A stretch of DNA of 21,461 nucleotides from Lentisphaeria bacterium (lineage in GTDB: Bacteria; Verrucomicrobiota; Lentisphaeria; Oligosphaerales; Oligosphaeraceae), in contig JAEEXV010000387.1 of the NCBI GenBank assembly GCA_016287975.1, positions 1 to 21,461 on the forward strand, in the 5' to 3' direction. This document shows positions 1-21,461 of this stretch, one piece after another. The notes under the pieces were generated by a model, which saw only the letters and a program-made list of their open reading frames with translations, was not told the origin of the DNA and made no database searches. A program made the translations under genes and the position numbers. Position 1 is the first letter of the stretch; the number at the start of each line of letters is the position of its first letter.

Positions 1-2
1 AG

Positions 3-2519: not shown

Positions 2520-2531
2520 GAGTGCCAAGCC

Positions 2532-4609: not shown

Positions 4610-4635
4610 GGCACGCCCCGCCCCGTGTCGTGTGC

Positions 4636-4696
4636 CGGGCCGCTCTCGCACCTTGCAATGCCCCGAAAATGGTTGCCACGGCGGCCTCGCCGTGGC
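4636..4696 (+). repeat. 61-base direct repeat, copy 1, with stem-loop
   Basis: It matches 4749-4809 with a single difference (G at 4672 region versus A at 4785 region context, in ...AAAATGGTTG versus ...AAAATAGTTG). The 3' part folds: GCCACGGC (4675-4682) pairs perfectly with GCCGTGGC (4689-4696) around a GGCCTC loop. It lies 27 bases after the ceramidase-fold stop and could act as a transcript end or stabiliser. Confidence 0.85.
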
Positions 4697-4748
4697 GGCT
4701 CGGTGAATGGGCGGCAGTCGATTCCAAAGCCCTGGCTGCGTTTTGTTG

Positions 4749-4812
4749 CGGGCCGCTCTCGCACCTTGCAATGCCCCGAAAATAGTTGCCACGGCGGCCT
4801 CGCCGTGGCAAC
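4749..4812 (+). repeat. 61-base direct repeat, copy 2, with longer stem-loop
   Basis: This copy is offset 113 bases from copy 1. Its palindrome is longer: GTTGCCACGGC (4785-4795) pairs perfectly over 11 bases with GCCGTGGCAAC (4802-4812), loop GGCCTC. No T-tract follows, so it is not a classical rho-independent terminator. The element resembles bacterial REP-type intergenic palindromes. Confidence 0.85.
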
Positions 4813-4859
4813 AACTTCTGGCATGAAAACGGCGGTGATTGCGGGGAACAGCGCCGCCT

Positions 4860-4883
4860 GGAAAAGCGGCACAAGCCCCGCGC
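4860..4883 (+). repeat. 24-base direct repeat, copy 1
   Basis: It starts GGAAAAGCGGC and is repeated at 4945-4968 with two mismatches. The second copy begins at the end of the 4927-4946 hairpin. No function is evident. Confidence 0.65.
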
Positions 4884-4918
4884 CTCCACCCATTCCCCAT
4901 CGTTTTTTCTCCCCCCGT

Positions 4919-4946
4919 GTTCTGTGCCGGGCCGTTTTCGGCCCGG
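4919..4946 (+). repeat. Dispersed palindromic element with TTTT loop
   Basis: CCGGGCCG (4927-4934) pairs with CGGCCCGG (4939-4946) around TTTT. The 27 bases 4919-4945 recur at 18950-18976 with one mismatch, and a diverged copy occurs at 6526-6551. The flanking GTTCTGTG is also conserved, so this is a repeated unit and not a chance hairpin. Confidence 0.8.
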
Positions 4947-4985
4947 AAAAGCGGCGCAAGTCCCGCGCAACCCCCGTTCACTCCC

Positions 4986-6512
4986 ATGCTTTTCTTCGAT
5001 GAAGATTCCGACTGGCGCTTCTACGACATAGAAGCGGGTACGATGACCGCCTCCGACCTGGACCGCCTGGTCACCCCGCTGGCGGGCACGCAGACCGCCG
5101 CCTTTGTCATCGGCGTCAATTCAAAACTGGCGAATTTCCCCAGCAGGATCTGCGAGAGCTACACCAACAACGGCTTCGACATGGCGGGCGGCATGTCCCA
5201 GCCGTGGATGTGCGGCTTCACCAAAGACCGCTGGAGCTACCGCCGCAGCGCCAACCTCAAGGTGCTGGAGCGCCAGGGCGTCGATTCCAACCAGGCCCTC
5301 ATGGACCGCGCCCGTGCCGCAGGGATGGAGGCGTGGCTGACCATCCGCATGAACGACCAGCACTACGTCTTCCACCCACGCCACCCCATCCACTCCAACT
5401 TCTGGATGAACCACCCCGAACTGCGCGTGCAGTCCCTCGCCCCCGCCAGTGGTTTCGACTACTCCCACGAATGCGTGCGCACCTACTTCGGCGACTTCGT
5501 CTGCGAGGTCATCGACCACTATGACGCGGACGGCTATGTCATCGACTGGATGCGCCATCTCCTATACTTCGACGAGGGCCAGGGCGAGGCCCACATCCCC
5601 GAGATCAACGCGATGATGCAGCGCTTCCGCCGCCACGCCGACGCCGTCGGCGCGCGCCGCGGCAAGCGCCTGAAACTCGTCGCGCGCATCCCCACGACCA
5701 TCCGCAAAAGCCGTTTCCACGGCTTCGACGGCGTCGAATGGGCGAGGCAGGGCTGGGTCGACCGCCTCGTCCTCGCGACCCGCTATCTGCGCGACTATGA
5801 CATCGACCCGCGACCGTGGCAGGAGGCCATCGGCATCCCGAATTTCCCCGTCACTGTCTGCGTCGAGAAGTTCTACTCCCCGTATCCAGGCTATCCGCCT
5901 GGCCAGCCGCAGGGCGTCTCCATGGACGAGCCCTTCGACGAACGCCAGATCCCCTTCGTGCGCGGCGCCTGCCGCGCCGCCCTCGCACGCGGCTCCGCCG
6001 ACATCTACCTCTTCAACTTCATGCGCCCCCGCGTCGATCCCGCCTTCCGATGCCTCTTCGAGGAATGCGGATCCTTCGACACCCTCGTCGGCAAGGAATG
6101 CGCCTTCGACATCACCTACGACGACCTCGACATGGAGGAAGCCGTCTACCTGGACGGCTGGCGCGCGGGAACCACCGACGCCTACTTCGCGGGCTGGCGC
6201 GCCGCCCGCCGCGCCACTGGCGACTACCCCTACCAGCTGCCGCTGCCGCTCGTCCCTGGCGAAGCGGGCACGCTGCGCTTCCACACGGGCCCCGTCCCCG
6301 AAAAGAACCTGGAGGTCGTCGTGCGCCTCCAGGGCGCCCTCGACGGCACCGCCGTCGCCTGCAACGGGCTTCCTGGCACCGCCCTCGGCAACGCCGAATG
6401 GCGCCTACCCGCCGAGGCGCTCGACGGCGACACCGCCGCCGTCGCCATCACCAACGGCAGCCATTCGCAGTACGCCATCCATCGCGCCTCGCTCTTCCTG
6501 AAGCCCCGCTGA
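4986..6512 (+). CDS. Cytosolic GH10-like TIM-barrel protein of unknown substrate
   Basis: A 508-residue protein with no signal peptide. The first ~380 residues look like a (beta/alpha)8 barrel of the GHL10/family-10-like glycosidase type: GMEAWLTIRMNDQH, a strand GYVIDWMRH near residues 183-191 where the acid residue of such barrels sits, then RLKLVARIP, WVDRLVLATRY and ADIYLFNFMRP strands. The last ~110 residues form a beta-sandwich-like domain (LPLPLVPGEAGTLRF onward). The ATG at 4986 was chosen because the upstream in-frame stretch is repeat-rich non-coding DNA; no Shine-Dalgarno precedes it, so the start is less certain. Glycan neighbours on both sides fit a glycosidase, but catalytic residues are not certain and it could be a non-hydrolytic relative. 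Confidence 0.75.
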   Translation: MLFFDEDSDWRFYDIEAGTMTASDLDRLVTPLAGTQTAAFVIGVNSKLANFPSRICESYTNNGFDMAGGMSQPWMCGFTKDRWSYRRSANLKVLERQGVDSNQALMDRARAAGMEAWLTIRMNDQHYVFHPRHPIHSNFWMNHPELRVQSLAPASGFDYSHECVRTYFGDFVCEVIDHYDADGYVIDWMRHLLYFDEGQGEAHIPEINAMMQRFRRHADAVGARRGKRLKLVARIPTTIRKSRFHGFDGVEWARQGWVDRLVLATRYLRDYDIDPRPWQEAIGIPNFPVTVCVEKFYSPYPGYPPGQPQGVSMDEPFDERQIPFVRGACRAALARGSADIYLFNFMRPRVDPAFRCLFEECGSFDTLVGKECAFDITYDDLDMEEAVYLDGWRAGTTDAYFAGWRAARRATGDYPYQLPLPLVPGEAGTLRFHTGPVPEKNLEVVVRLQGALDGTAVACNGLPGTALGNAEWRLPAEALDGDTAAVAITNGSHSQYAIHRASLFLKPR

Positions 6513-6525
6513 ACACGGGCAGCCA

Positions 6526-6551
6526 GTTCCGTGCCGACCCGTTTTCGGGCC
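6526..6551 (+). repeat. Diverged copy of the dispersed palindromic element
   Basis: Aligned without gaps to 4919-4944 it has four differences. Two of them are paired: a G-C pair has become C-G, so the stem CCCG-TTTT-CGGG is kept. It lies 13 bases after the stop of the GH10-like gene. Confidence 0.6.
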
Positions 6552-6572
6552 AGTCGTTTCCTCACCAAAAAT

Positions 6573-6576
6573 GGAG
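6573..6576 (+). promoter_or_regulatory. Shine-Dalgarno deciding the aminotransferase start
   Basis: GGAG sits nine bases before the ATG at 6586 and lies inside the codons that a start at 6571 would use, so 6586 is the better start. Confidence 0.6.
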
Positions 6577-6585
6577 ATCTTTCCC

Positions 6586-7905
6586 ATGACCGATCAAGAA
6601 CTCTACCGCCATGCAAAAACCGTCATCCCAGGCGGCACGGGCTTGTTGAGCAAGCGCCCCGAGATGATGGCGCCAGACCTCTACCCCGCGTACTTCAAGG
6701 CCGCGAAAGGCTGCCGCGTCACCGACTACGACGGCCGCGAATACATCGACTTCGCGACCATGGGCATCGGCGCGTGCCTGCTGGGGTTCAACGACGATGA
6801 GGTCAGCGAGGCGGTCGTCAGAACCGTGCGCGACGGCTCCTTCTCCACCCTGAACCCGCCCGAGGAGGTCGAACTCGCCGACCGCCTTGTCGCGATCCAC
6901 CCATGGTCGTGCTGGGCGCGCTTCGCGCGTGGCGGCGGCGACACCGCCGCCGTCGCCATCCGAATCGCCCGCGCCGCCACGGGGCGCTCGAAGGTGCTGA
7001 TCATCGGCTACCACGGCTGGCACGACTGGTATCTCGCCGCCAATCTCGCCGACCCGAATGAACTCGGCGGCCTCTGGCTCAAGGGCCTCTCCCCCCACGG
7101 CGTCCCCAGGGAACTCCTCGGCACCGCGCTTGTCTGCCTCCACGGCGATTTCGAGAATCTCGATCGGATCCTCCGCCAGCACGGCGACGAACTCGCCGCC
7201 ATCATCTGTGAGCCCTGCCGCCACGAGGAGCCCACGCCAGGCTTCTTGCAGGCCCTCCGCGACGGCTGCGACCGCCACGGCGCCATGCTGATCTACGACG
7301 AAATCACCATCGGCTGGCGATACCGCTTCGGCGGCTCCCACCTCTCGTTCGGCGTCGCCCCCGACCTCGCCCTCTTCTCCAAGGCCCTCGGCAACGGCCA
7401 CCCCATCGGCGCCGTCCTCGGCAACGCCAAGTGCTTCGATGGCGCCTCCAAGGCCTTCCTCAGCAGCACCTACTGGACCGAGCGCATCGGCCCCGCCGCC
7501 GCCCTCGCCACCATCGCCAAGATGGAGCGCACGCAGGTCGCCCAAAAGGTCGCCGCCTTCGGCAACCGCGTGATGAAACTGTGGCAGGAGACCGCGAAGG
7601 CCGTCGCGCTGCCGCTGTCGCTCACCAGCGAATTCGGCTGCCTCGCCTGCTTCAAGTTCGACACCCCTGCCCCCAATGCCGCGCGCACCCTCTTCACCCA
7701 GTTGATGCTCGAACGCGGCTTCCTCGCGGGAACTGGCTTCTACCCCGCCCTCCCCCACGGCGACCGCGAATTCGACCTCTACGCCGCCGCCGTCCGCGAG
7801 GTCTTCGCCATCCTCGCGCCCCTCGCGCAGGAAGGCGAGGCCGCCATCCGCGCCGCCCTCAGGGGTCCTGAGGCCCACACCACCTTCCAGCGGCTTGTCA
7901 AGTAG
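6586..7905 (+). CDS. Class-III PLP aminotransferase, glutamate-1-semialdehyde aminomutase-like
   Basis: The 439-residue protein has the fold type I, class-III pattern: IPGGTG at residues 10-15, GCRVTDYDGREYIDF (the entry strand shared with glutamate-1-semialdehyde aminomutase), YHGWHDWY, the PLP-ring Asp in YDEITIGWR (Asp238) and the Schiff-base Lys in FSKALGNGHPIGAV (Lys266). Such enzymes move amino groups or isomerise amino aldehydes; those in sugar clusters often act on keto-sugars or on amino acid side products. An early-chain RGGGDTAAVAIRIAR replaces the usual SG-T/S-EA-x-x-A-xR-x-AR region (G-DTA for SEA), which is common in non-HemL members. The heme enzyme itself is therefore unlikely. 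It follows the GH10-like gene by about 70 bases and may be co-transcribed. Its substrate is unknown. Confidence 0.85.
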   Translation: MTDQELYRHAKTVIPGGTGLLSKRPEMMAPDLYPAYFKAAKGCRVTDYDGREYIDFATMGIGACLLGFNDDEVSEAVVRTVRDGSFSTLNPPEEVELADRLVAIHPWSCWARFARGGGDTAAVAIRIARAATGRSKVLIIGYHGWHDWYLAANLADPNELGGLWLKGLSPHGVPRELLGTALVCLHGDFENLDRILRQHGDELAAIICEPCRHEEPTPGFLQALRDGCDRHGAMLIYDEITIGWRYRFGGSHLSFGVAPDLALFSKALGNGHPIGAVLGNAKCFDGASKAFLSSTYWTERIGPAAALATIAKMERTQVAQKVAAFGNRVMKLWQETAKAVALPLSLTSEFGCLACFKFDTPAPNAARTLFTQLMLERGFLAGTGFYPALPHGDREFDLYAAAVREVFAILAPLAQEGEAAIRAALRGPEAHTTFQRLVK

Positions 7906-7915
7906 GAGGTCCGTC

Positions 7916-8092
7916 ATGTTGCAATTCTGGTGTGTCGTTGAGAACGAATTCGCCTACGTCCGCGAGGTCCTTTCAGGATGTTTTTGGCACGCTTGTAATC
8001 GACTGACGCACTATCCAAATACTTCGCAAGTTCAGGATCCTGGCAGTGGCGGTTGTCTCTGGAACGGCTATTTTATGGCCAGCGACAAATGA
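7916..8092 (+). CDS. Small ORF with strong Shine-Dalgarno, possible gene remnant
   Basis: AGGAGG at 7904-7909, overlapping the aminotransferase stop, lies six bases before the ATG at 7916, the best ribosome site in the window. The 58-residue product starts MLQFWCVVENEFAYVREVL, plausible as protein, but from about position 7980 the DNA becomes AT-richer and the translation (HYPNTSQVQDPGSGGCLWNG) looks random. The simplest reading is the 5' end of a gene once co-translated with the aminotransferase, now truncated. A genuine small protein cannot be excluded. I recognise no family. Confidence 0.35.
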   Translation: MLQFWCVVENEFAYVREVLSGCFWHACNRLTHYPNTSQVQDPGSGGCLWNGYFMASDK

Positions 8093-8126
8093 GAGGGGGC
8101 GCAACCACAACCAAGGAAACCGCAAC

Positions 8127-8444
8127 ATGGGAGCCAAAGTCTTTATGCTGAAGAATGCACTCGCGAAAATCATCGGCGGCGGCATCGGATTCGCCATCAT
8201 TCACGCCATCGTGTTCTGGATCGCCTTCTTCCAGTGCGGCGGCTTCAGGGATTCCGCCAGCAGCATCTGGCAGGGCATCACCACCAGCGGCAGCGCCTGG
8301 ACGACCGTCCTGAAATGGACTGGCTTCCCGCTGTCCTGCATCAGTGCCTCGGGGGCGGCCTTCGTCTGCGTCATGATCCTCAACTCGATCCTCTGGGGCG
8401 CCGTCGTCGGAGTGATCGTCGGATTCATCTTCGGGCGGAAATAG
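8127..8444 (+). CDS. Small two-helix membrane protein, hypothetical
   Basis: The 105-residue product has two clear hydrophobic segments, IIGGGIGFAIIHAIVFWIAFF (residues about 15-35) and FVCVMILNSILWGAVVGVIV (about 80-100), joined by a Ser/Thr/Trp-rich loop. AAGGA at 8113-8117 lies nine bases before the ATG at 8127, which supports this start over upstream in-frame codons. Third-position GC fits real coding here, unlike the ORF before it. The gene stands between the aminotransferase region and a hairpin, with no obvious operon partner. I recognise no family. Confidence 0.65.
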   Translation: MGAKVFMLKNALAKIIGGGIGFAIIHAIVFWIAFFQCGGFRDSASSIWQGITTSGSAWTTVLKWTGFPLSCISASGAAFVCVMILNSILWGAVVGVIVGFIFGRK

Positions 8445-8460
8445 AAGCCCGCGCACCGTC

Positions 8461-8492
8461 CAGGGGCTGGCGGCCAGGCCGTCCAGCCCCTG
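8461..8492 (+). terminator. Strong GC hairpin, candidate terminator
   Basis: CAGGGGCTGG (8461-8470) pairs perfectly with CCAGCCCCTG (8483-8492), 16 bases after the small membrane protein stop. The downstream run is only GTTCTTT, so it is a weak intrinsic terminator at best, but its place at a gene end fits. Confidence 0.5.
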
Positions 8493-8540
8493 CCGAGTTC
8501 TTTGATACAGGCTATATTATCGCTTTCGCCTTTGTCCCCA

Positions 8541-8560
8541 GCCCGCCACTACAGGCGGGC
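8541..8560 (+). repeat. Stem-loop upstream of the aspartokinase gene
   Basis: GCCCGCC (8541-8547) pairs with GGCGGGC (8554-8560) around a six-base loop, 39 bases before the aspartokinase start. It may affect the leader of that mRNA. No leader peptide or known riboswitch core is seen around it. Confidence 0.4.
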
Positions 8561-8598
8561 CTGCCTCCTGTCCCGTGTCCAATCCGAGAAATCCTGTC

Positions 8599-9999
8599 AT
8601 GCATACTGTAGAAAAGATCGGCGGCACCTCAATGTCGCGTTTCGGGGAAGTGATGCGCAATGTCATCATCGGCCATCGCAAGCCTGAAGACCTCTACAAC
8701 CGCATCTTCGTCGTCTCCGCATACGGCGGCATCACCAATCTCCTCCTCGAGGACAAGAAGACTGGACAGCCTGGCGTCTACGGCAAGTTCGCCGCCGAGG
8801 ATCCCAGCTGGGAACAGGCCCTCGAGGCCGTCCGCCAGCGCATGCTCGAATACAACCGCTCCTTCGTCAGCGTCGGCCTCGACCAGGACGCCGCCGCCGA
8901 ATTCGTCAACACCCGCATCGACGGCATCGGCGAATGCCTGCACGACCTGGTGAACCTGCGCTCCTTCGGCCATTTCGACCACCGCAGCTATCTGCCGCAG
9001 ACCAGGGAACTCCTGAGCGCGGTCGGCGAGGCGCAGAGCGCCTTCAACGCGACCCTGATGCTCCAGCGCAACGGCGTCAACGCGAAGTTCGTGGATCTCA
9101 CGGGCTGGCGCAACGACTACATCCCGAAGTTCGACGAGGCGATTCTCAAGGCCTTCGAGGGCATGGACTTCAGCAAGGTGATGCCGATTGTCACAGGCTA
9201 CGTCAAGTACGACGAGGGCATCATGACCCGCTTCGACCGCGGCTACAGTGAAATCACCTTCAGCAAGATCGCGGTGCTGACCCGCGCGCAGGAAGGCATC
9301 ATCCACAAGGAATACCACCTGTGCACAGGCGACCCCAAGCTCATCGGCACCGACAAGGTCAAGATCATCGGCAACACCAACTTCGACATCGCCGACCAGC
9401 TCTCGGATCTCGACATGGAGGCCATCCACTCCAAGGCATCCAAGGAAATGGAGCAGTGCGGCATCCCGATCCGCGTCAAGAACGCCTTCGACCCCGAAAA
9501 CCCGGGCACCCTCATCTCCTGCGACTACGTCTCCCAGGTCCCACGCGTCGAAATGATCTGCGGACGCAACGACATCGTCGCCATCGAGGTGCTCGACCCC
9601 GAGATGGTCTCCAAGCCTGGATACGACTACAACCTGCTCCAGAGCCTCGCGGAGTTCAAGATCAGCTACATCACCAAGACCACCAACGCCAACACCATCA
9701 CCCACTTCGTGCCCGCCAAGAAGCAGCCCATCGGGGGATGCGTGGAGGACATCAAGCGCCGCCTGCCTGGCGCGCAGGTCTCGACGGCCCCCGTCGCCAT
9801 CGTCTCGGTCATCGGCACCAACATGAAGATCCCTGGCTTCCTCGCGACCGCCGCGCGCGCCCTCTACGAGGCGAAGATCAACACCCTCGCCATGGTGCAG
9901 TCCCCGCGCCAGGTCAACATGCAGTTCATCATCGACCGCCGCGACTTCCAGCAGGCCCAGTGCGTCCTGCACAAGGTCTTCGTCGAGGATCCGAAATAA
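8599..9999 (+). CDS. Aspartate kinase, resembling the ectoine-cluster type (Ask_Ect)
   Basis: The enzyme phosphorylates aspartate, the first step to lysine, threonine, methionine and diaminopimelate. The 466-residue protein opens with VEKIGGTSMSRFGEVM (the K-x-GGTS nucleotide/aspartate motif), then IFVVSAYGGITNLLLE, VDLTGWR, FDRGYSEITFSKIAVLT near residue 212, EGIIHKEYH, RVKNAFDPENPGTLI and TNANTITH near 363, with C-terminal ACT-like segments to the end. These phrases match, from memory, the specialised aspartokinase found beside ectABC genes rather than LysC or ThrA, whose motif is G-R-G-G-S-D-T-T-A. No ectoine gene is in the window. ATG 8599 is preferred to GTG 8575 because MHTVEKIGGTS is the usual start of this subtype. 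The membrane protein gene follows after 12 bases. Confidence 0.88.
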   Translation: MHTVEKIGGTSMSRFGEVMRNVIIGHRKPEDLYNRIFVVSAYGGITNLLLEDKKTGQPGVYGKFAAEDPSWEQALEAVRQRMLEYNRSFVSVGLDQDAAAEFVNTRIDGIGECLHDLVNLRSFGHFDHRSYLPQTRELLSAVGEAQSAFNATLMLQRNGVNAKFVDLTGWRNDYIPKFDEAILKAFEGMDFSKVMPIVTGYVKYDEGIMTRFDRGYSEITFSKIAVLTRAQEGIIHKEYHLCTGDPKLIGTDKVKIIGNTNFDIADQLSDLDMEAIHSKASKEMEQCGIPIRVKNAFDPENPGTLISCDYVSQVPRVEMICGRNDIVAIEVLDPEMVSKPGYDYNLLQSLAEFKISYITKTTNANTITHFVPAKKQPIGGCVEDIKRRLPGAQVSTAPVAIVSVIGTNMKIPGFLATAARALYEAKINTLAMVQSPRQVNMQFIIDRRDFQQAQCVLHKVFVEDPK

Positions 10000-10011
10000 C
10001 CTGGCATCGCC

Positions 10012-10437
10012 ATGCTCCACCTGCTGCTCGCCGGACTTTCACTCCTCGCCCTCGTCTTCTGGGGCGTCTACGTGTGCGTCTCGTTCCTGCCACTGCGGGT
10101 CGGGCGGCGGGCATACAAGGCCGCTCTTGCCTTGACCATGCTCTATCTGCTGGGGCGCATCGCCTATTTCGCCATCGCCCCAGGCGCCGCCGCAAAGCAT
10201 GACTTCCTCTTTATGAACTACCTCGACGGCGGCTTCGCCGCCGCCTTCCTGACCCGCGCCATCCTCCTGGCCATCCACCGCAAATGGCCCATCCCGCGCT
10301 GGCCTGGAATCGCCGCCCAGATCGTGCTCTTCGCCGCCCTCTGCTTCCTCTGCACCCCCGCGATGCGGCAGCTCCAGAAGGGCCCCGCCGCCCCGAATAC
10401 TCCCGCCCCCGCCGCATCGACCGCCAGCGCATCATGA
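10012..10437 (+). CDS. Four-helix integral membrane protein, hypothetical
   Basis: The 141-residue product has four hydrophobic segments (about residues 1-26, 35-56, 64-85 and 97-115) and an Ala/Pro/Ser-rich tail. The start follows the aspartokinase stop by 12 bases, and the stop overlaps the CoaBC start as ATGA, so it is co-translated with that gene. I recognise no family. Its place between aspartokinase and coenzyme A synthesis hints at nothing specific; small membrane proteins of this kind are often lineage-specific. Confidence 0.72.
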   Translation: MLHLLLAGLSLLALVFWGVYVCVSFLPLRVGRRAYKAALALTMLYLLGRIAYFAIAPGAAAKHDFLFMNYLDGGFAAAFLTRAILLAIHRKWPIPRWPGIAAQIVLFAALCFLCTPAMRQLQKGPAAPNTPAPAASTASAS

Positions 10438-11606
10438 GCGGACATCGGATCATCGTCATCACGGACGGGGCGGCGGCGCTGCTCCACACCCCGCCGCTGC
10501 TGGCGGCGCTGCGGCGCAACGGCCATTCCGTCAAGGTGGCCCCCACTGGCTATGACGGCGCCTCCGCGCTCGCCTTCGTCGGCGAACTGGGCTGGGCCGC
10601 CCTTTCGGGCCATCCCGCCCTGGATCTCTCCCGCCTGACGCCAGAGACGCTGGGCTGGGCGGAACTGGTCGTCCTCGCCCCTGTCTCGCCCGCCGTCCTC
10701 CAGGTCTTCCGCCAAGGCAGCGCCCTGGCGCTGCTGAAGCAGTCCGAACGGCCAGTGCTGGCCGCGCCCGCGCATCTGCCTGGGGACGGCGCGGATGCCG
10801 CGCTCGACGCATGGATCCGTGAACTGCCGCCTGGCAGCCGCCTCCTGGAGGGGCGGCCAGAGGAACTCATGGCACTGGGCGCGATGGGCAACGTAGTCTT
10901 GGCGCCAGTGCCGACGGTGGTCGAATGCGCCGAGGCGATGCTCTCCGCGCAGCCGCTCGCGGGCGAACGCGTCCTGGTCACCGCGGGCCCCACCGCCGAA
11001 GACCTCGACCCCGTGCGATATCTCACCAACCGCTCCAGCGGCAAAATGGGCGTCGCCCTCGCCCTCGCCGCCGTGCGCTTCGGCGCCCGCGCGACCATCG
11101 TCCACGGCCCCATGGCCACCGCCCTGCCGCGCGTCCCAGGACTCGACGCCGTCCCCGTGCGCTCCGCCCGCGAAATGCACGACGCGGTCGCGGCCCGCTG
11201 GCAGGATGCCACCATCGCGATTCTCGCCGCCGCCGTCGCCGACTTCACCCCCGACCACTGCGCCCCCCAGAAGCTCAAGAAGCACGGCGACGCGGGGCTC
11301 ACCCTGCAACTGGTGCGCACCGCCGACATCCTCGCCGAACTCGGCGAGCGCTGCCCGCGCCCGTTCCTCGTCGGCTTCGCCGCCGAAAGCGACGACGTCG
11401 AGATCAACGCCCTCGCCAAGCTCCGCCGAAAGCACTGCGACCTCATCTGCGCCAACGACATCCGCGCCCACGACACGGGCTTCGCCGTCGACACGAACCA
11501 GGTCACCATCTATGACCGCGACGGCACCCGCACCCCCCTCCCCCTCCTCTCCAAGCGCGCGACCGCCGAAGCAATCCTCGACTATATCGCCCGCCGAACG
11601 CCATGA
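10434..11606 (+). CDS. coaBC: CoaBC-type protein: intact CoaB ligase domain, degenerate CoaC domain
   Basis: Normal CoaBC joins cysteine to 4'-phosphopantothenate (CoaB) and decarboxylates the product with FMN (CoaC). The C-terminal half (from about residue 176) is a standard CoaB: VLVTAGPTAEDLDPVRYLTN, RSSGKMG near 200, AAAVADF, KLKK near 280, VGFAAES and DLICANDI. The N-terminal ~170 residues keep the flavodoxin-like frame (GHRIIVITDGAAALLHTPPLLAALR, AALSGHPALD, WAELVVLAP) but lack the CoaC signatures: the catalytic His region is LTPETLGW, PxMNxxMW is replaced by APAHLPGDG, and the substrate-clamp Cys loop (ACG) is GAMGN. Decarboxylation is therefore unlikely from this chain, and a separate CoaC may exist elsewhere. 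The start at 10434 overlaps the previous stop (ATGA). Confidence 0.87.
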   Translation: MSGHRIIVITDGAAALLHTPPLLAALRRNGHSVKVAPTGYDGASALAFVGELGWAALSGHPALDLSRLTPETLGWAELVVLAPVSPAVLQVFRQGSALALLKQSERPVLAAPAHLPGDGADAALDAWIRELPPGSRLLEGRPEELMALGAMGNVVLAPVPTVVECAEAMLSAQPLAGERVLVTAGPTAEDLDPVRYLTNRSSGKMGVALALAAVRFGARATIVHGPMATALPRVPGLDAVPVRSAREMHDAVAARWQDATIAILAAAVADFTPDHCAPQKLKKHGDAGLTLQLVRTADILAELGERCPRPFLVGFAAESDDVEINALAKLRRKHCDLICANDIRAHDTGFAVDTNQVTIYDRDGTRTPLPLLSKRATAEAILDYIARRTP

Positions 11607-11615
11607 AAGCCACCG

Positions 11616-14600: not shown

Positions 14601-15209
14601 CATGCGCGCATAGTAGTAGATGGGAGCCGCAGTCACCGGCACTGGCAGCCGCGCGGCGATGTACCAGCGTTTGCCCCATACGACCTGGGTGTCACCATCC
14701 TTGCGGAGCACGCCATGCCGCCCGGGCATCTCGGCTGCGCGCAGACAAATTGGCGGGACGGCGAGCACCTCCAGGATGCCGACCGACTCCAGCCTCTCGA
14801 GTTTGCACGAGAAGTTCCGCACCTCAAAGGAGGTCTCAGGCGCGCCAGCGGGAACGAAGAGGCTGAAGGAGACCTTGGATGTCGTGTTGGCATAACTGAC
14901 CTCGACGGGCTGCCATTCCCCCGTGAGTTCGAAGACCGGGATGGAGGTGACCTGCCCCAGCTGGCCGCTGACCATCGCCCGCAGTTTTCCGCTTCCGCGC
15001 ACCTCGCAGCGGTATGCAGTCCGCCATCCCGGAATCGCCGGAACCACGGACGAGACGCCGGCATTCGGAGTCGCCGCCCTGCCCTTCAGGATGGCGCCCT
15101 CCAGCGTGCAGGTCCCGCCTTTCATTCCGCGGAAGCCGCTTAACGTCGAAGGGGCGGCAAGACAGCAGAGGGAGGCAAGCAAAAACAGCGAGATGAAGAG
15201 TTGTTTCAT
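11616..15209 (-). CDS. Giant secreted multidomain glycosidase-like protein, paralogue A
   Basis: A 1197-residue protein with signal peptide MKQLFISLFLLASLCCLAA. Approximate order: two N-terminal beta-sandwich regions (25-290); a CBM9-like domain (about 296-510) with VGRGTPAIDGKLDDAAW, MLWDDENLYLAF, DDCIAILL and YWEAEVAIPW; further beta-rich segments (520-810); a C-terminal TIM-barrel-like domain (about 816-1120) with HLCWDYEF near 930 as a candidate acid strand and the CFCDECRADF loop seen in many glycosidase barrels; then a short C-terminal beta domain (VLMNHGRRPQRF). It probably acts on glycans at the cell surface; no known GH family is certain. AAAGGAA (complement of 15219-15225) lies ten bases before the start. 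It is the last gene of the leftward operon, 34 bases after its paralogue. CCGG sites crowd its 5' half only. Confidence 0.78.
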   Translation of the reverse strand: MKQLFISLFLLASLCCLAAPSTLSGFRGMKGGTCTLEGAILKGRAATPNAGVSSVVPAIPGWRTAYRCEVRGSGKLRAMVSGQLGQVTSIPVFELTGEWQPVEVSYANTTSKVSFSLFVPAGAPETSFEVRNFSCKLERLESVGILEVLAVPPICLRAAEMPGRHGVLRKDGDTQVVWGKRWYIAARLPVPVTAAPIYYYARMRHQGKGVGIANLIHHDSLQIVAPEVRFASGDAWQWLRFGPIPTGHAFPEAAIRFGGDAQSQYFLDRVVIATDASLTPAQLDAMPCQVSDRASVAVGRGTPAIDGKLDDAAWVNSLPIGPFMLMGRTVFAAEQTMARMLWDDENLYLAFSCGEPALAPSANRMHAFQRKVTAHDQDAIYKDDCIAILLANPAVPSEVSEVVVNAAGAILDSRDERSNMWQKRDKSWESGARAAVQVHAEEPVGYWEAEVAIPWKALGGKPGAIPWEIKIGRFEWPSKEMSSYTPISGGLHLNESFFEARFVPNVPGTGVSAWPEFAPGANRLAIQSDQLSSRQPLLLRVETAFDRKPPHTVHSDREAAFSLDGKDAFRFRWRIFDASLRELLRSPQYRLALSAQTMDVALPKGARLLCNGRPAAGRAILATGVNELEVQAPAGAQVRLSVDGAPISFPEGWRKAGADRWKLTLADGATELWPNWKADALHLIRGGVQHLFFCPRGFPGSTASEYTLVLDLPEGVQFLGASGYINHHQTTVRESPSPLGRGWTRRRIAFSQPRKWSETLPTDRYYTVVLAADADVSAESSAFYFHAESPADGLSEAPQKVPLVFLPAIRGTQPKTLGVGISSFRLGALDDLALTRRTLAFFRDLGATRFTSANKHHYAELPNAIYFNFRWCFSFVPFLKEHPDYALIDRRGRRSDHLVCSRKFLTAPECRKYIVESLPAWQKRWGMVEHLCWDYEFRVLDAPIACFCDECRADFAKAARLPGVPNAAEIAARHFDAWTDYMTTRFADLAELLCKAAHEALPGIVFSVYSGYQSDENCSFFGVDWRKLDGRIDLAIAGYGRDLAVLTATRKALPRTPLALGAYTRPYEFGDKRPVPPVTLAQLLRRSADATAGFFVYYLPNLDGRSYTAISRAASILARYEPFFLRGENHPERLAAAGLPEADAALLSDGQGKWLLVLMNHGRRPQRFRLDAAKLGLSGLPPEVTLAPGDGAVFPAK

Positions 15210-15340
15210 GATGCGGGATTCCTTTCTGGCGATTCGGCGTTCTTCACTTCATTTCGCGGTGGAAGACGGCGGCGTCACCGGGTGGGATGGTGATTTGCGA
15301 TGGTAGATCGGGCAGACCGAGTTTCGCGGCATCGAGCCGG
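13339..15340. other. CCGG-rich island across the junction of the two paralogues
   Basis: About 21 CCGG tetramers lie here, against about three in the preceding 8.4 kb and about one in the following 6.1 kb (manual count). The island covers the 5' half of paralogue A, the 34-base gap and the last ~100 bases of paralogue B. Its edges do not match gene ends. Confidence 0.65.
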
Positions 15341-18300
15341 AAAGTGCGCGGCTGTACGGCGTGGTTCATGAGGATGAGCAGCCCATTCCCCTTGCCGTCG
15401 GCAAGGAGCGCGGCGTTCTCCTCGGGCAGACCAGCCGCCGCAAGGCGTTCAAGGTGGTTTTCGCGACGCTTGAAGAAGGCCTCGTATTGCGCGATGATGC
15501 GCGAGGCGCGCGCGACCGCCGTGAAACTGCGCCCGTCCATCGACGGCAGGTAGTAGACGAAGAAGCCCGCGTTGGCGTCGGCGGCGCGGCGCAGCAATTG
15601 GGCGAGAGTGAACGGCGGGACGGGGCGTTTGTCGCCGAAGTCGTACGGCGTGACGATGGCGCCGAGCATCAGCGGCGTGCTGGGCAAGGCGGCCCTCGTC
15701 GCGTCCAGCACGCTGCGCACGCGGCCGTATCCTGCGCTGGCCAGGTCGATGCGCCCGTCGAGCTTGGCCCAGTCGACGCCGTATTCGAGTTTGTTCGCGG
15801 GGCTCTGGTAGGCGGAGTAGACCGAGAAGACAATGCCAGGGATCGCCTCGTGCGCGGCCTTGCAGAAGTATTCCGCGAGGTCGGCGAAGCGCGTGGTCAT
15901 GAACTCCACCCACGCGTCGCGGTGCTTGACGATGATCTCCGCGCGCACTGGGACCGTCGGCAGTCTTGCGGTCTTCGCGAAGTCGGCGCGGCACTGGTCG
16001 CAGTAGCAGGCGATTTCCGAGTCGAATGGCCCGCCCAGTTCATAGTCCCAGCAGATGATGGCGAGTTTGCCCCAGGCCGCGTGCCACTTCGGGAAGAACT
16101 CCAGGATGTATCGGCGGCATTCGGGCGTCGTGAGAATGCGCGGGCAGACCTCGTGGTTGGAGCGCGTGCCGTTTCGGTAGACGAGCGCCGCCTCGGGGTG
16201 CCTGGCGAGGAACGGCTTGAAGTGGAAGTTCCACCCCTTGAAGTTGAAGTAGATGGCGTTCGGCAGTTCGTCATAGTGCCGTTGAGTCGCGCTGGTGAAG
16301 CCTGTAAAGCCCATCGAGCGCAGGAACGACAGCATCGGCGGAAGCAGCGTCTGGTCGGTCAGGGCCCCCAGGCGGCTGCAGCTGATGCGCACGGCGAGTT
16401 CTTTGGGCTGCACGCCCTGAATCGGCGGCAGAAAGACCAGCGGAACCTTCTGCGGGGCCTCTGTGATCCCGTCCGCCAGGCTCTCCGCATGAAAATAGAA
16501 GGCGCCCGTTTTCAAGGCGTCCCGCTCTGATGCCTCGATCTGAACGACGATGTACTTCTCCGAGGGATAGTTCTCCGACCATGGACGCTGCCCTGCGACC
16601 GCGACACGCCAGCGCCGCCACCCCTTTCCCAACGGCGAGAAAGGCGCCTCCTGCACGGCGGTCTCGTAGTATCGGATGTAGCCGCTGGCGCCTTGCACGC
16701 GGACGCCCTCAGGCAGGTCAAGCACAATCGCGTAATCGCGGACGGTCTTGCCAGGGAAGCCGCGCGGGCAGAAGAAGAGTTGCTGCACGCCGCCGCGGAT
16801 CAGATGCAGGCCGTCGGACTTCCAGTTCGGCCAGAGCTCGGTCGCCCCGTCGGCGAGGATGAGGCGCCAGCGGTTCGGAGCCGTCCTGGTCCAGCCATCG
16901 GGGAACGGGATGGGCACGCCGTCCACCGCGAGGCGCACGGCGGCCTTTTCGTCGGCGGCGAGTTCCAGTTCGTTGAGGCCCGTGGCGAGGATGGCGCCGC
17001 GGTCGGCGGGACGGCCGTTGCAGAGGAGCCGCGCGCCAGCGGGAAGCGCGACCTCCAGTGTCTCGGCGGAGAGGGCGAGGCGGTAGCGCGGCGAACGCAG
17101 CACTTCCCGTAGCGAGGCGTCGGCGACGCGCCAGCGGAATTGGAAGGCGTCCTTGCCCTCCAGGTTGATGGCGAGGTCGCCCGCGCCATGCACGGCGACG
17201 GGGCGTTGCTTCGCGAAGGTGCTTTCGGCGGTCAAGAGCAGTGGCGACACGCTTTGGAGCGCCAGGCGGTTCGGGCCAGGCGTGAACTCTGGCCACGCCG
17301 TGATGGATGCGCCAGGAAGGCGCTCCGCAAAGCGCAGTTCAATGAAGTCGCCGTCCTGGTGCAGGCCGTCATGCCGAATAGGCTGATAGCCGCTCGTCTC
17401 CTTGGAGGGCTTCTCGATGCGAGACAACTTCGCGTGCCATGGCGCCACTCCAGGCTTGCCGCCCAGCGCCGCCCACGGGATCGCCAGCTCGGCATCCCAG
17501 AAGCCGCCCGTGCTCTCGGTGCGCACCGCAATGGCCGCGCGCACGCCAGATTCCCATGCCGTGTCGCGCTTCAGCCACATGTCCTCACGGGGGCTCGCGC
17601 AGTCCAGGACCGCCCCTGAGGCGCTGACGAGAATGTCGTGCACACGCCGATCTGAGTTCGGATTCACGAGCAGCACCGACACGCAGTCGTCCTGATAGGT
17701 CTGTTTCAATTCGTCGTGCGCGGTGATGTTGCGGCGGAACTCCTGGAGGCGGTTGGCGGCGGGCGTGAGGGCGGATTCGAGGCAATGGAAGAAGACATAG
17801 AGGTTTTCGTCGTCCCACAGCAGCCTCGCGGTGGTCTGCTCGGAGGCGAAACTCATGCGTCCCTGCAGCAGGAACGGCCCCAGCGGAAGACTGTCCCGCC
17901 AGACGGCATCGAGTTCGCCGTCCACTTTCGGCGTGCCGCGCCCGACGGCGACCGCGCCGCCGTCGCCATCCTCCTGGCACGGCACGGCGTCCAGATCGGC
18001 AGGCTTGAGCGATCCGTCGGTTGTGACGACGGTGCGGTCCAGTTGGAACTCGGTGTATTTGCCCTCCCCTCCGATGAATTTGACGGCGACCTCAGGGAAG
18101 GCGAGGTTGGCGGCGACTGGCCCCAGCCGCAGCCATTCCCAGCGGCTGGGACCCGTGCATCGGGCCTCTGGTGCGAGATTCTGCTGGCTCTCGTGGTGGA
18201 TGAGCGCCGCGCCGCCAGGCATCTTTCCGCCGTGGCGCATCCGCACATAGTAGTAGACAGGGCGAGAGGTCAAGGGCACGGGCAGGCACGCCACCACCGA

Positions 18301-18888
18301 ATAGCATCTGCCCCACACGACGGTCAGTCCGTCCCTGCGCGGCGGCGTGGCCAGCAGCTCCTTGTTGGCGAGGCCCATTTCCCCCGTGTCCTTGCGCAGG
18401 CGCGCATGGCGCGCGGGCCGCTCGGCGGCGCGGATGCAGACTGGCGCGACCGCGAGATCCGCCAGTTCTGGCATCGCCTCCAGTTCGGCGGTCAGATTCC
18501 GCAGCTCGAAGGAGGCTTCCGCGCAGCCTGGCGCCAGATACAGCCCGAACGACACGTGCGCGGTCGTCTCCGCATAGCTGATGGCGATGGTCTGCCACTC
18601 CGCGGAAAGCTCCACGGGCACTCGGCTGAACACCCGCCCCTGGCGCCCGTTGACGCTCGCCCGCACCTTGCCGCTCCCCCGCACCTCAACGCAGAAGGTC
18701 GTGCGCCGCCCAGGCGCCACCGCGAAGGCGGCGGCGACGCCCGCGTTCCGCGACGCCGCCCTCCCCTTCAGCACGCCGCCCTCCAGTTGGCAACTGGCGC
18801 CGCCGATGCCACGGAAGCCATTCAATGGCAATGCCTCGGCAAACGCCAGCGCCACCACGGCGAACAACCAGGCCAATATGATTCTCAT
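15244..18888 (-). CDS. Giant secreted multidomain glycosidase-like protein, paralogue B
   Basis: A 1214-residue paralogue of the downstream gene, collinear over its whole length and by eye more than half identical. Signal peptide MRIILAWLFAVVALAFA; I chose this Met because it begins the hydrophobic core, though an in-frame ATG at 18915 adds nine residues. The CBM9-like domain starts near residue 312 (VGRGTPKVDGELDAVW, LLWDDENLYVFF). The barrel has IICWDYEL near 947 and CYCDQCRADF, so the WDYE strand and paired Cys loop are kept in both copies. About 18 extra residues (around GEMGLANKELLATPP) separate it from paralogue A before VVWGR. It lies 107 bases after the pseudopilin gene, a gap that holds a hairpin. 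Likely function is extracellular glycan binding and cleavage; the substrate is unknown. Confidence 0.78.
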   Translation of the reverse strand: MRIILAWLFAVVALAFAEALPLNGFRGIGGASCQLEGGVLKGRAASRNAGVAAAFAVAPGRRTTFCVEVRGSGKVRASVNGRQGRVFSRVPVELSAEWQTIAISYAETTAHVSFGLYLAPGCAEASFELRNLTAELEAMPELADLAVAPVCIRAAERPARHARLRKDTGEMGLANKELLATPPRRDGLTVVWGRCYSVVACLPVPLTSRPVYYYVRMRHGGKMPGGAALIHHESQQNLAPEARCTGPSRWEWLRLGPVAANLAFPEVAVKFIGGEGKYTEFQLDRTVVTTDGSLKPADLDAVPCQEDGDGGAVAVGRGTPKVDGELDAVWRDSLPLGPFLLQGRMSFASEQTTARLLWDDENLYVFFHCLESALTPAANRLQEFRRNITAHDELKQTYQDDCVSVLLVNPNSDRRVHDILVSASGAVLDCASPREDMWLKRDTAWESGVRAAIAVRTESTGGFWDAELAIPWAALGGKPGVAPWHAKLSRIEKPSKETSGYQPIRHDGLHQDGDFIELRFAERLPGASITAWPEFTPGPNRLALQSVSPLLLTAESTFAKQRPVAVHGAGDLAINLEGKDAFQFRWRVADASLREVLRSPRYRLALSAETLEVALPAGARLLCNGRPADRGAILATGLNELELAADEKAAVRLAVDGVPIPFPDGWTRTAPNRWRLILADGATELWPNWKSDGLHLIRGGVQQLFFCPRGFPGKTVRDYAIVLDLPEGVRVQGASGYIRYYETAVQEAPFSPLGKGWRRWRVAVAGQRPWSENYPSEKYIVVQIEASERDALKTGAFYFHAESLADGITEAPQKVPLVFLPPIQGVQPKELAVRISCSRLGALTDQTLLPPMLSFLRSMGFTGFTSATQRHYDELPNAIYFNFKGWNFHFKPFLARHPEAALVYRNGTRSNHEVCPRILTTPECRRYILEFFPKWHAAWGKLAIICWDYELGGPFDSEIACYCDQCRADFAKTARLPTVPVRAEIIVKHRDAWVEFMTTRFADLAEYFCKAAHEAIPGIVFSVYSAYQSPANKLEYGVDWAKLDGRIDLASAGYGRVRSVLDATRAALPSTPLMLGAIVTPYDFGDKRPVPPFTLAQLLRRAADANAGFFVYYLPSMDGRSFTAVARASRIIAQYEAFFKRRENHLERLAAAGLPEENAALLADGKGNGLLILMNHAVQPRTFRLDAAKLGLPDLPSQITIPPGDAAVFHREMK

Positions 18889-18949
18889 GCTGCCCAGATT
18901 TCCCAAGTTTCGCATTTACCTGGCGTGTGCCGACGGGCTTGCCAGTTGA

Positions 18950-18978
18950 GTTCTGTGGCGGGCCGTTTTCGGCCCGCC
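18950..18978 (+). repeat. Dispersed palindromic element, second strong copy
   Basis: GGCGGGCCG (18957-18965) pairs with CGGCCCGCC (18970-18978) around TTTT. It shares 26 of 27 bases with 4919-4945. It lies in the leftward operon between pseudopilin and paralogue B, where it could reduce read-through or protect the pseudopilin mRNA end. Confidence 0.8.
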
Positions 18979-18995
18979 GTCTTTCGCCTTCTCCT

Positions 18996-19712
18996 CTACA
19001 ACTGCTTCCTGATGTAGAAGTTCGCGTTGGAGATCTCAGTCCGTGAGACGGCGGCGGCGTGGCAGTCGCCGAAAACCGCGTTGGCCCTCTTGTTGTGCAG
19101 GAACCACATGCCCTTGCCCGTGGCGCTCATGTTGTCGGGGACGCACAGGTTCCAGGGGTTGCCCCAGCTGCAGCCCTGGTAGGTGAAATCACCGTAGTCG
19201 GTGCTGTTGAAGCGGTCGGCGAAGTTGATGAGGTCGCTCAGGCGCTCCGCCTGCGTGCGGCGCATGGCGACGTAGGGGCCGCCAGGGACGGGCTGCGTGT
19301 ATGGCATCTGGTTGTAGCCATAGTCGGCGTATTTCCAGGCCTTGCGGCCGTAGGGGTTGGTCGGGCAGTCGAGGATGGAGCCTGCCAGGCAGGAGATGGT
19401 CCAGGTCTTTGTCGCCGCCATGTACATGGTCTTGAGGTAGTCGCCTGCGAAGGGGTGCTGCTTTTCATTGCACCAGTAGTAGGAGCCAGAGGTCGGCTTC
19501 GGAACGGTGGCGGGCGCGTAGAACTCGTCGTAGTCGTTGGCGTAGAAGTTCAGGGTCAGGCCAAGTTGCTTGAGTTTGTTCAGGCACGAAATGGCCTTCG
19601 CCTTCTCCCGCGCCTGCGAAAGCGCGGGCAGCAGCATGGAGGCGAGGATCGCGATGATGGCGATGACGACGAGAAGTTCAATGAGCGTGAACAGGGAACG
19701 GATTCTACGCAT
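18996..19712 (-). CDS. Type II/IV pseudopilin-like protein with H-x9-D motif
   Basis: The 238-residue protein has the prepilin N-terminal methylation site and helix ([19 protein letters not shown], residues 8-26) followed by [21 protein letters not shown], the hallmark of the large pseudopilin families of Lentisphaerota and Planctomycetota. The leader MRRIRSL would be cut by a prepilin peptidase before the Phe. The C-terminus contains [14 protein letters not shown]: the His followed by nine residues and Asp of the H-x9-DG motif, but with Cys in place of Gly. The middle is Tyr/Trp/Gly-rich with several Cys. AAGGAG lies about nine bases before the start. Such proteins probably assemble in a type II-like secretion or surface system; being inside a glycosidase operon suggests a role in exporting or displaying those enzymes, or in glycan binding. 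Confidence 0.9.
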
Positions 19713-19744
19713 GGCGGGGGTCTCCTTTGGTTGGGGTGGTGGAA

Positions 19745-20746
19745 CTATCCTTCAAAACAAAACTGGATGAGGCTTTCAAGCGGGGCGGTGGCAAGGCAGA
19801 CCACGGTGTCCGCCGCGCCATAGTAGATCTTGACTTCGCCGTCCCCCCCGACGATGAGGCCGCACGGAAAGATGACCTCCCCCCGAAAGCCCTTGCGCTC
19901 GTAGTCGGTCTCTGGGACGATCAGCGGCGTCTTCGCCATCGCGACGATCTTCGACGGGTCGTCCAAGTCGAGCAGCATGAGGCCAGCGTAGTAGCGGCGC
20001 ACCCAATGCCGTTCCCAGGCGTCCAGCGGCTGGTCGACGACCTCGACGGCATGGAAGGCGGTCAGCCATCCCGCCTTCGTCTTGACAGGCGGGGCGGCGG
20101 GGCCGATCTTGAAGTTCGCGAAGGGGACCTGCGGCGGCATCAGCACCGCCTTGCTTTCGCCCCAGAGGCGCAGGTCGTCGGAACCGCTTGAAATCCAGAT
20201 GCCGTGGACCATCGGGTCGCCCTCGCCGAACGGGCGCTCCAGGCGCATGGCCTTCCCGTGGATCTTCTCAGGGAAAAGCACCATGTTGCGGTTGGTCGGC
20301 ACCGAGATGAAACGGAAGTCGTAATGATGGAAGTCGCGCGTCACCGCAATGCCGCCGCAGGTGCCGTATTTCGAGCGCATCGCCGTGCAGACGCCAAATT
20401 CGCCATTCCCGAGGTCCGTGATGCGCGGGTCGTAGACGCGGTCGATCGCGGGATCGCCGACATCCTGGAACGACAGCACTGGCGACGGCTCGACCTGCCA
20501 GCGCACGCCGTCCTCGCTGTGCGCGAGTCCCAGGTTGGTCTGGAAGCCTGTGTGGTCGCAGATGCCCGCGTAGAAGTCGTCGTAGTCCTTCGGCGTCACG
20601 CCGTAGTCGTTGCGGAAGAGCATCAAGTATTCGCCGCCAGTGCGGATCACGCCCGCGTTGAAGACCAGCGCCGATTCATACGGCAGATCCGCTTTCGAGA
20701 GGACGACGCCGTGGCGGCGGATGAAGGATGGAGTCTGGAAATGCAT
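19745..20746 (-). CDS. GH130-family glycoside phosphorylase
   Basis: The 333-residue protein matches the GH130 five-bladed propeller: [17 protein letters not shown] near residue 105 (the Asp is the proton donor of the family), [51 protein letters not shown], a [10 protein letters not shown] segment and [14 protein letters not shown] at the end. GH130 enzymes phosphorolyse beta-mannosides, giving mannose 1-phosphate; a few members hydrolyse instead. The residue before DPRIT is Tyr, where Glu is frequent, so subfamily is uncertain. No signal peptide, hence cytosolic. The ATG at 20746 is preferred to the TTG at 20761 because it gives an 11-base gap to the upstream stop with a GAGAGAAG Shine-Dalgarno-like stretch before it. 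The gene is second in the visible leftward operon. Confidence 0.88.
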
Positions 20747-20757
20747 GGGGGCTTCTC

Positions 20758-21461
20758 TCAATGGATGGCCGTGAGGCCGTAGCCGCGCAGCGTCTCTGCG
20801 GCCGCGTCAAGTGCCGTCGCGTCTGGCGCGGGCACATCAGGGAGGGTGTCGGGCTGGCCGACAGCGCGGTATTTCGCATGCGCCAGCGAATGGTAAGCGA
20901 GCAGCCGCACGGCGGTGAGATTCCGCAGCGGGGCGAGGACTTCCCCCGCCGCCCGGAGCAATTCGGGGGAGTCGTTGCGCCCTGGCACCAGGATCATCCG
21001 AATCTCGATCGGCTTGCCAGCCTGGTCGAGCCGCCGCAGGTTCTTCAGAATCAACTCGTTGCCGACACTGGTGAGAAGGCGGTGGAGCCCCGAATCCGCG
21101 CACTTGAAGTCGTAGAGGAAGAGGTCGCAGACGGGCAGCACCTGTTCGAAGGCGCTCCAGGGGACATGCCCGCAGGTGTCGCACGCGCAGTGCACGCCCT
21201 CCGCCTGCATCCGCGCGTAGAGCGCCGCGCAGAACTCGGGATGGAGCAGCGGCTCGCCGCCAGAGAGGGTGACGCCGCCGTCGGCGCCGTAGAAGCCGCG
21301 GTCCTCCAGCAATTTCGCCGCCGCCGCCTCCACCGTCATCGGCGTGCCGTACAACTCCAGCGCGCCGTAGAGGCACGCCTCCACGCATTGCCCGCACGCA
21401 CGGCACTGGTCGCGATGGAAGCGGTGGACGCCCCCGTTCACCTGATGGCACGGGCAGACCT
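20758..21461 (-). CDS. Radical SAM activase of a glycyl radical enzyme, 5'-partial
   Basis: The frame is open to the right window edge, so the true start and most of the radical-SAM cysteine motif are missing; the last visible codons give VCPCHQVNGG. Next comes a ferredoxin-type cluster motif CRACGQCVEACLYGAL, then GGVTLSGGEPLLHPEF (the SAM-binding GGE), CDTCGHVP, FLYDFKCAD and RMILVPGRND. This is the layout of pyruvate formate-lyase-activating enzyme relatives with an auxiliary 4Fe-4S insert, which create the Gly radical on a partner such as a diol dehydratase or formate-lyase. The partner should lie just upstream, outside the window. Anaerobic life is implied. An internal GTG at 21441 is not a believable start because it would cut off the cluster cysteines. 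Confidence 0.88.
   Translation of the reverse strand, partial: VCPCHQVNGGVHRFHRDQCRACGQCVEACLYGALELYGTPMTVEAAAAKLLEDRGFYGADGGVTLSGGEPLLHPEFCAALYARMQAEGVHCACDTCGHVPWSAFEQVLPVCDLFLYDFKCADSGLHRLLTSVGNELILKNLRRLDQAGKPIEIRMILVPGRNDSPELLRAAGEVLAPLRNLTAVRLLAYHSLAHAKYRAVGQPDTLPDVPAPDATALDAAAETLRGYGLTAIH

Follow-up and report, generated by a model that had tools for sequence, protein, structure and literature searches.

Introduction

HpaII and MspI recognize the tetramer CCGG, and the same word is depleted in the DNA described here. This is a stretch of 21,461 nucleotides, probably a complete contig, from a Lentisphaeria bacterium (GenBank assembly GCA_016287975.1, contig JAEEXV010000387.1, positions 1 to 21,461), and the whole of it is called the window below. 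Of 1774 cases of orthodox Type II restriction sites in the available text of Rusinov et al. (2015, PMC4687349), 850 show under-representation, and the site avoidance outlasts lost systems as a trace. What the window holds is restriction-site avoidance of this known kind at unusual strength.

The avoidance is interrupted by two segments with normal CCGG numbers, and one of its switches lies inside a gene. We consider it probable that CCGG was purged by a long-lived Type II restriction-modification system and that the CCGG-normal segments are recent imports. A literature search combining Lentisphaeria with restriction-modification and methylation motif found nothing.

Results

CCGG is depleted in two blocks of the window

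Four blocks of the window were scored by script, with the expectation taken from a second-order Markov model. Their CCGG counts (observed/expected) are as follows.

1 to 4946: CCGG-normal segment 1, CCGG 37/41.9; six genes in 3-4609, including a GntR/FCD regulator and a GDSL lipase
4947 to 13338: CCGG-depleted block 1, CCGG 3/61.7
13339 to 15340: CCGG-normal segment 2, CCGG 21/20.4; the first 624 codons (5′ half) of a gene for 1197 amino acids (aa), a spacer and the last ~32 codons of its 1223-aa paralog
15341 to 21461: CCGG-depleted block 2, CCGG 1/47.5; includes most of the 1223-aa paralog

The hand counts of the initial annotation (37; 3 at 9502, 10031 and 12322; 1 at 20953) agree with the scripted ones site for site. 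Since 13339-15340 holds 21 CCGG between the depleted blocks, the depleted range is two blocks rather than one. Relative to a uniform rate, a four-segment rate model gains 53 log-likelihood units, with the cut points chosen from the data.

GGCC, GCGC and CGCG had been claimed to stay frequent and do so, at 64/105.9, 143/156.2 and 128/162.4 in 4947-13338. GCGC and CGCG are near expectation in the window. GGCC is mildly low, at 0.49 to 0.71 of expectation, in all four blocks, and its shortfall being common to them, there is no block-specific GGCC effect. Near-Markov CCGG counts and an equal loss of GGCC and GCGC had been named beforehand as the outcomes contrary to a specific depletion, and neither was seen (3/61.7 and 1/47.5).

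ACGT is under expectation in the depleted blocks (7/20.0 and 2/20.4), in part because the CCGG loss inflates the ACG and CGT counts. CTAG is zero in each of the four blocks. GTCGAC and CTCGAG occur in the depleted blocks at about half of expectation or less, on small counts.

Synonymous codons were shuffled 500 times within each gene, keeping the protein and the codon usage fixed. The coding DNA of the depleted blocks (13,593 bases) has 4 CCGG against 108.4±6.4 by shuffling, the lowest of the 500 shuffles being 88. The CCGG-normal stretches have 34 against 35.0±3.3 (segment 1) and 19 against 21.8±3.1 (segment 2). Composition, codon usage and protein sequence are thus ruled out as the cause. 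The depletion is independent of all three, as the initial annotation had held for composition, and a palindrome that is scarcer than composition and codon usage account for is characteristic of Type II avoidance. The intergenic DNA counted in the depleted blocks, 842 bases with 0 CCGG, is too small a sample alone.

The sites are lost by many synonymous routes

In the depleted genes, proline is encoded by CCG in 1/124 cases when the next base is G and in 98/164 otherwise. Likewise, alanine GCC is used in 1/32 cases when GG comes next, and arginine CGG in 2/145 after C but 41/189 otherwise. The loss is present in all three codon phases. The codon test sets vary slightly at the segment edges among the codon-phase, codon-usage, replacement and shuffle analyses.

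A translational codon-pair bias forbidding the CCGG-making codon pairs would suit a sequence that is mostly coding and an avoidance that works through codon choice. It is hardly credible, because all three phases are hit and the effect stops within one gene. Moreover, a class relative denoted G049 is also depleted outside its open reading frames (ORFs) of at least 150 aa (13/140.5), where the genes come from a simple longest-ORF script and the noncoding DNA takes in short genes.

Decay of methylated sites makes another prediction. If a cytosine-5 methylase acted on CCGG without effective repair, deamination would turn the sites into CTGG/CCAG (or TCGG/CCGA) with no selection on the site. CTGG/CCAG are indeed 1.45 times as frequent in the depleted as in the normal blocks, but ACGG/CCGT rises more, 1.87 times. 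We therefore examined the replacing codons, namely alanine, threonine and serine (TCN) codons other than NNC before GG, with ten GC-matched, CCGG-tolerant class pieces as controls.

The T share of these codons hardly differs between the window (0.203, n=59) and the controls (0.202, n=331); for CCA before G, the shares are 0.152 (n=92) and 0.200 (n=439), respectively. Replacement in the window is not mainly by CTGG/CCAG, as 5-methylcytosine deamination would have it, and loss went through any tolerated change, as in Type II avoidance. The replacing codons match ordinary codon choice, so the sites were lost by whichever synonymous change was normally favoured, as site selection predicts. CCGG thus escapes by many synonymous routes.

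G049 leans slightly the other way. Against 19 control pieces, it has a T excess (odds ratio 1.28, p=0.04) and a CCA excess (1.24, p=0.057), both in the deamination direction, and it carries two cytosine methylases. Taken together, methylation decay appears improbable. The initial annotation had offered selection against a CCGG site or a modification or repair process; the former fits best, and the latter, as C-to-T decay of methylated cytosine, is contradicted by the codon data of the window.

Core-type genes sit in the depleted blocks

By codon-position GC and Pfam family searches, the window is a gene-dense bacterial segment. Its features, with the family assignments from Pfam marked, are listed here.

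3314 to 4609: weakly ceramidase-like protein (sub-threshold ceramidase match), segment 1
4986 to 6512, plus strand: 508-aa gene of no clear family, depleted block 1
6571 to 7905, plus strand: class-III aminotransferase (Pfam), depleted block 1
8575 to 9999, plus strand: aspartate kinase (Pfam), depleted block 1
10012 to 10437, plus strand: 141-aa protein with no family match, depleted block 1
10284 to 11606, plus strand: CoaBC (Pfam), depleted block 1
11616 to 15209, minus strand: 1197-aa gene, containing the CCGG switch, its 3′ part in depleted block 1
13111 to 13259: candidate crossover zone, where the paralog DNA is 83% alike with exact matches of 29 and 21 bases
15244 to 18915, minus strand: 1223-aa paralog, CCGG-depleted save its last codons
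18996 to 19712, minus strand: prepilin-like protein (Pfam), depleted block 2
19745 to 20761, minus strand: GH130 (Pfam), depleted block 2
20758 to 21441, minus strand: radical SAM protein (Pfam), depleted block 2

Aspartate kinase and CoaBC are core-type genes inside the depleted blocks, and the nearest named relatives are Victivallales/Lentisphaeria. The 1197-aa and 1223-aa tandem paralogs have a sub-threshold CBM9-like match only, and the 1197-aa protein has a match in 127 of 197 class genomes, often several per genome. Searches of the window for tRNA and Rfam families gave no match.

The depleted blocks might themselves be foreign, for example an element adapted to a CCGG-restricting host and inserted in a normal genome. 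Restriction-site avoidance is frequent in mobile DNA, according to the available text of two studies (PMC6286503, PMC10359461). This origin is nevertheless very improbable, given the housekeeping-type genes inside the blocks and the depletion of G049 over hundreds of kilobases (kb). Megablast against 50,697 phage and 72,556 plasmid records gave no alignment long enough to be useful; in two plasmids, 90 bases of the aspartate kinase are matched at 81%.

The CCGG-normal segments are candidate imports

Codon usage was compared with that of the native genes over 17 coding segments, excluding the codons that CCGG can constrain. Segment 2, at a chi-square of 3.69 per degree of freedom (df), is the most deviant of the 17 and lies beyond the spread of the native genes (0.93-2.59). 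The other half of the 1197-aa gene is the most typical of the 17, at 0.93. The codon usage of the half-gene segment 13339-15340 is foreign.

Segment 1 pooled reaches 104.8 at 40 df, that is 2.62 per df versus 2.59 for the most deviant native gene. Its single genes are at 1.16-1.63, within the native spread. For one segment 1 protein, another contig carries a relative at 92%, and a relative from named Lentisphaeria is at 66%.

The tandem paralogs share 58% protein identity, and the 1197-aa gene is open and aligned full-length with its paralog and P0122 across the CCGG switch. The candidate crossover zone is where the paralog DNA is most alike and lies beside the switch at 13339; further exact matches of 20-25 bases occur deeper inside the gene. 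Since segment 2 also covers the spacer and the final codons of the adjacent paralog, its donor probably carried the same gene pair.

At the edge of segment 1, the spacer 4610-4985 before the ATG at 4986 has imperfect direct repeats of 66, 28 and 35 bases and hairpins, one of which is CCGGGCCG-TTTT-CGGCCCGG. The repeat core has no exact match among the 194 loci compared.

The switches could alternatively be assembly joins, with pieces of a co-occurring CCGG-tolerant organism stitched into the contig of a CCGG-avoiding one. The contig seems metagenomic, a repeat-bearing spacer lies at the segment 1 edge and the 29-base exact paralog match lies near the segment 2 switch. Moreover, a contig piece of 4.2 kb is 99.5% identical between two metagenome-assembled genomes of the class, perhaps through mis-binning. 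However, a 29-base match is short for mis-joining by modern assemblers, the 1197-aa gene stays open and aligns lengthwise across the switch, and the same patchwork is found in G049. Such joins are unlikely on the whole but deserve some weight, and they would leave the depletion itself unaffected.

The depletion recurs in a relative

The class survey covered 129 pieces of 1.6-20 kb, in cases several per genome, of which 121 have at least 10 expected sites; L003, L004 and L007 were dropped as belonging to other taxa. One piece, at 1/80.7 and belonging to G049, is depleted as strongly as the window, and the next lowest are at 0.27 of expectation and up. Among the six nearest relatives by aspartate kinase (81%), the avoidance is graded: it is partial in G002 (0.27-0.51) and G056 (0.35-0.55) and weaker in the other four. 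Values other than those of G002 and G056 are mostly 0.6-0.9.

Other palindromes are scarce among the class pieces L115, L056, L103, L099, L035 and L090, with GCGC at 1/35.9 and 2/18.8, GGCC at 6/48.9, 6/43.6 and 1/15.1, and ACGT at 1/18.2.

A first sample of G049 (20 pieces, 372 kb, after dropping the extra piece L138, which reads as N) has CCGG at 32/1315, so that the depletion recurs in this genome. Its few sites are clustered, with 11 of 16 within-piece gaps between sites shorter than 1 kb, where random placement gives 2.5 and never more than 9 in 2000 trials, in a test that includes contig L141, the source of 6 of the 32 sites. In a second sample of G049, CCGG-bearing stretches adjoin CCGG-free ones. 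The avoidance thus extends across the 20 pieces of the first sample, with patches in the second. On these results, a second genome shows what the window shows, patches with CCGG in a background free of it.

The native state therefore seems to be the depleted one, with 1-4946 and 13339-15340, the CCGG-normal segments, as anomalies. By extension, the whole genome of the window's species would be likewise CCGG-depleted.

Two further features of G049 are its large ORF of 2805 aa at L188:401-8818, which has 38 CCGG and very deviant codon usage (6.80) beside CCGG-poor DNA, and its scarcity of GATC (445/1557, 0.29), GTCGAC (2/99) and CTCGAG (8/50).

Candidate enzymes

The initial annotation had suggested looking for an HpaII/MspI-like gene, and the family searches of the window found neither this nor another restriction or methylase gene. 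The HpaII nuclease family PF09561 was not found in 12 relatives, in a search that matched 1 of 14 control genomes. The MspI family PF09208 was not found in 9 relatives, in a search that had no positive control and so says little. PF01555, used as the search for N4/N6-methylases, is not in G049 and is present in 2 of the 5 genomes searched. The enzyme behind the depletion may belong to a different family or have been lost.

The two cytosine methylases of G049 are on its contigs C44 and C32. The one on C44 adjoins a Type II nuclease (PADLOC match). The pair is argued against as the cause and looks like a newcomer in G049, because the CCGG-tolerant genome G043 has a 100% identical nuclease. The pieces carrying the pair (L176 and L177, from G049 C44 and G043 C261) belong to two distinct genomes and share 99.5% identity across 4171 bases, which may reflect recent transfer or one contig binned twice. 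Two plasmid stretches of Pelobacter propionicus, one with a 64% homologue, have no CCGG avoidance, and this also weighs against the pair.

The methylase on C32 belongs to an AT-rich operon (L175:3581-9632), in which the genes after it encode, in order, a GHKL ATPase, an Mrr-ResIII helicase, a 193-aa protein without family assignment and Vsr. The operon is CCGG-poor (1/8.7), with CCGG as its most avoided palindrome, and its flanks are CCGG-bearing. It is a lead, and no more than a candidate, for a CCGG specificity in G049. Its Vsr would also suppress C-to-T decay. The GHKL ATPase was not found in the 27 other relatives searched.

Discussion

The explanation that we favour, purging by a Type II system followed by recent import, would run as follows. 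The chromosome of a gut-type Lentisphaeria (Victivallales-like) bacterium would have been emptied of CCGG by long selection, in which a Type II restriction-modification system, itself inferred, cuts CCGG wherever its own methylation lapses. Any synonymous change destroying a CCGG would be accepted. Both CCGG-normal segments would then have been acquired from relatives free of the CCGG pressure, recently on the time-scale of purging. One of them would have entered by homologous recombination within the tandem paralogs, replacing the 5′ half of one.

The two segments together carry 58 CCGG. Therefore, CCGG is no longer lethal there, being methylated or the nuclease being gone.

Several observations weigh against this explanation. 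No CCGG-specific nuclease or methylase was identified by the family searches of the window and relatives. In the available text of PMC4687349, 41 Helicobacter genomes with CCGG systems show CCGG over-representation, hence avoidance is not an invariable result of having a CCGG system. For segment 1, the argument from foreign codon usage is weak. For the donor of segment 2, there is no relative above 58% over the gene and none above 38% among the genome matches listed, only distant family members.

G049 adds two more such points. Its second sample is less depleted, at 153/910, where 11 of the 18 pieces do not exceed 0.1 of expectation and the other 7 lie at 0.17-0.53; two of the 18 were picked for methylases, and L175 and L188 hold 53 and 50 of the 153 sites. 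The CCGG-rich genes of G049 as a group have no codon deviance, with a median of 1.97 versus 1.50 (8 versus 301 genes, p=0.125).

The nuclease could also have acted with a weak or absent methylase, so that the chromosome was protected by erasure of its sites, not by methylation, and was kept CCGG-free in that way. We think this quite unlikely. If true, the absence of CCGG would be a mark of self, the patches would date from when the nuclease was off or lost, and CCGG would be a natural ancestry watermark that exposes imports down to half a gene.

For specialists, the most useful part is CCGG as an import marker at the sub-gene scale. Avoidance of this strength implies that the exposure to one nuclease was very long, and any stretch bearing CCGG can be read as having arrived recently, here with one boundary falling within a gene. 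If genome-wide, it would provide a direct way of counting gene-flow events and putting them in order in uncultured gut Lentisphaeria. It also bears on why hosts with methylated DNA still purge their own restriction sites. Haloferax volcanii (PMC2841640) was considered as a precedent for a tetramer marking imports and set aside, as the available text does not say so.

Compared with the known systems, the window differs from those of HpaII and MspI in that PF09561 was not found in the 12 relatives searched, nor PF09208 in 9 (with no positive control). The C32 operon, a feature of G049, resembles in its arrangement the restriction operons with MORC-like GHKL ATPases in the available text of Iyer et al. 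(2008, PMC2292703). Unlike G049, the window has no such operon found in it, and the ATPase is in none of the 27 other relatives.

The closest comparison is with the Type II site avoidance of Rusinov et al. (PMC4687349), as far as its available text goes. The window differs in strength, at 0.02-0.05 of Markov expectation, where the study sets its avoidance cut-off at 0.78 on its own measure Kr, the two measures being different. It also differs in that discrete segments are free of the avoidance, with one switch lying within a gene, and in that we infer the causative system. The likeness is in the essentials: a short palindrome is specifically scarce in a chromosome, and its avoidance is graded in strength across related genomes and possibly outlives the system.

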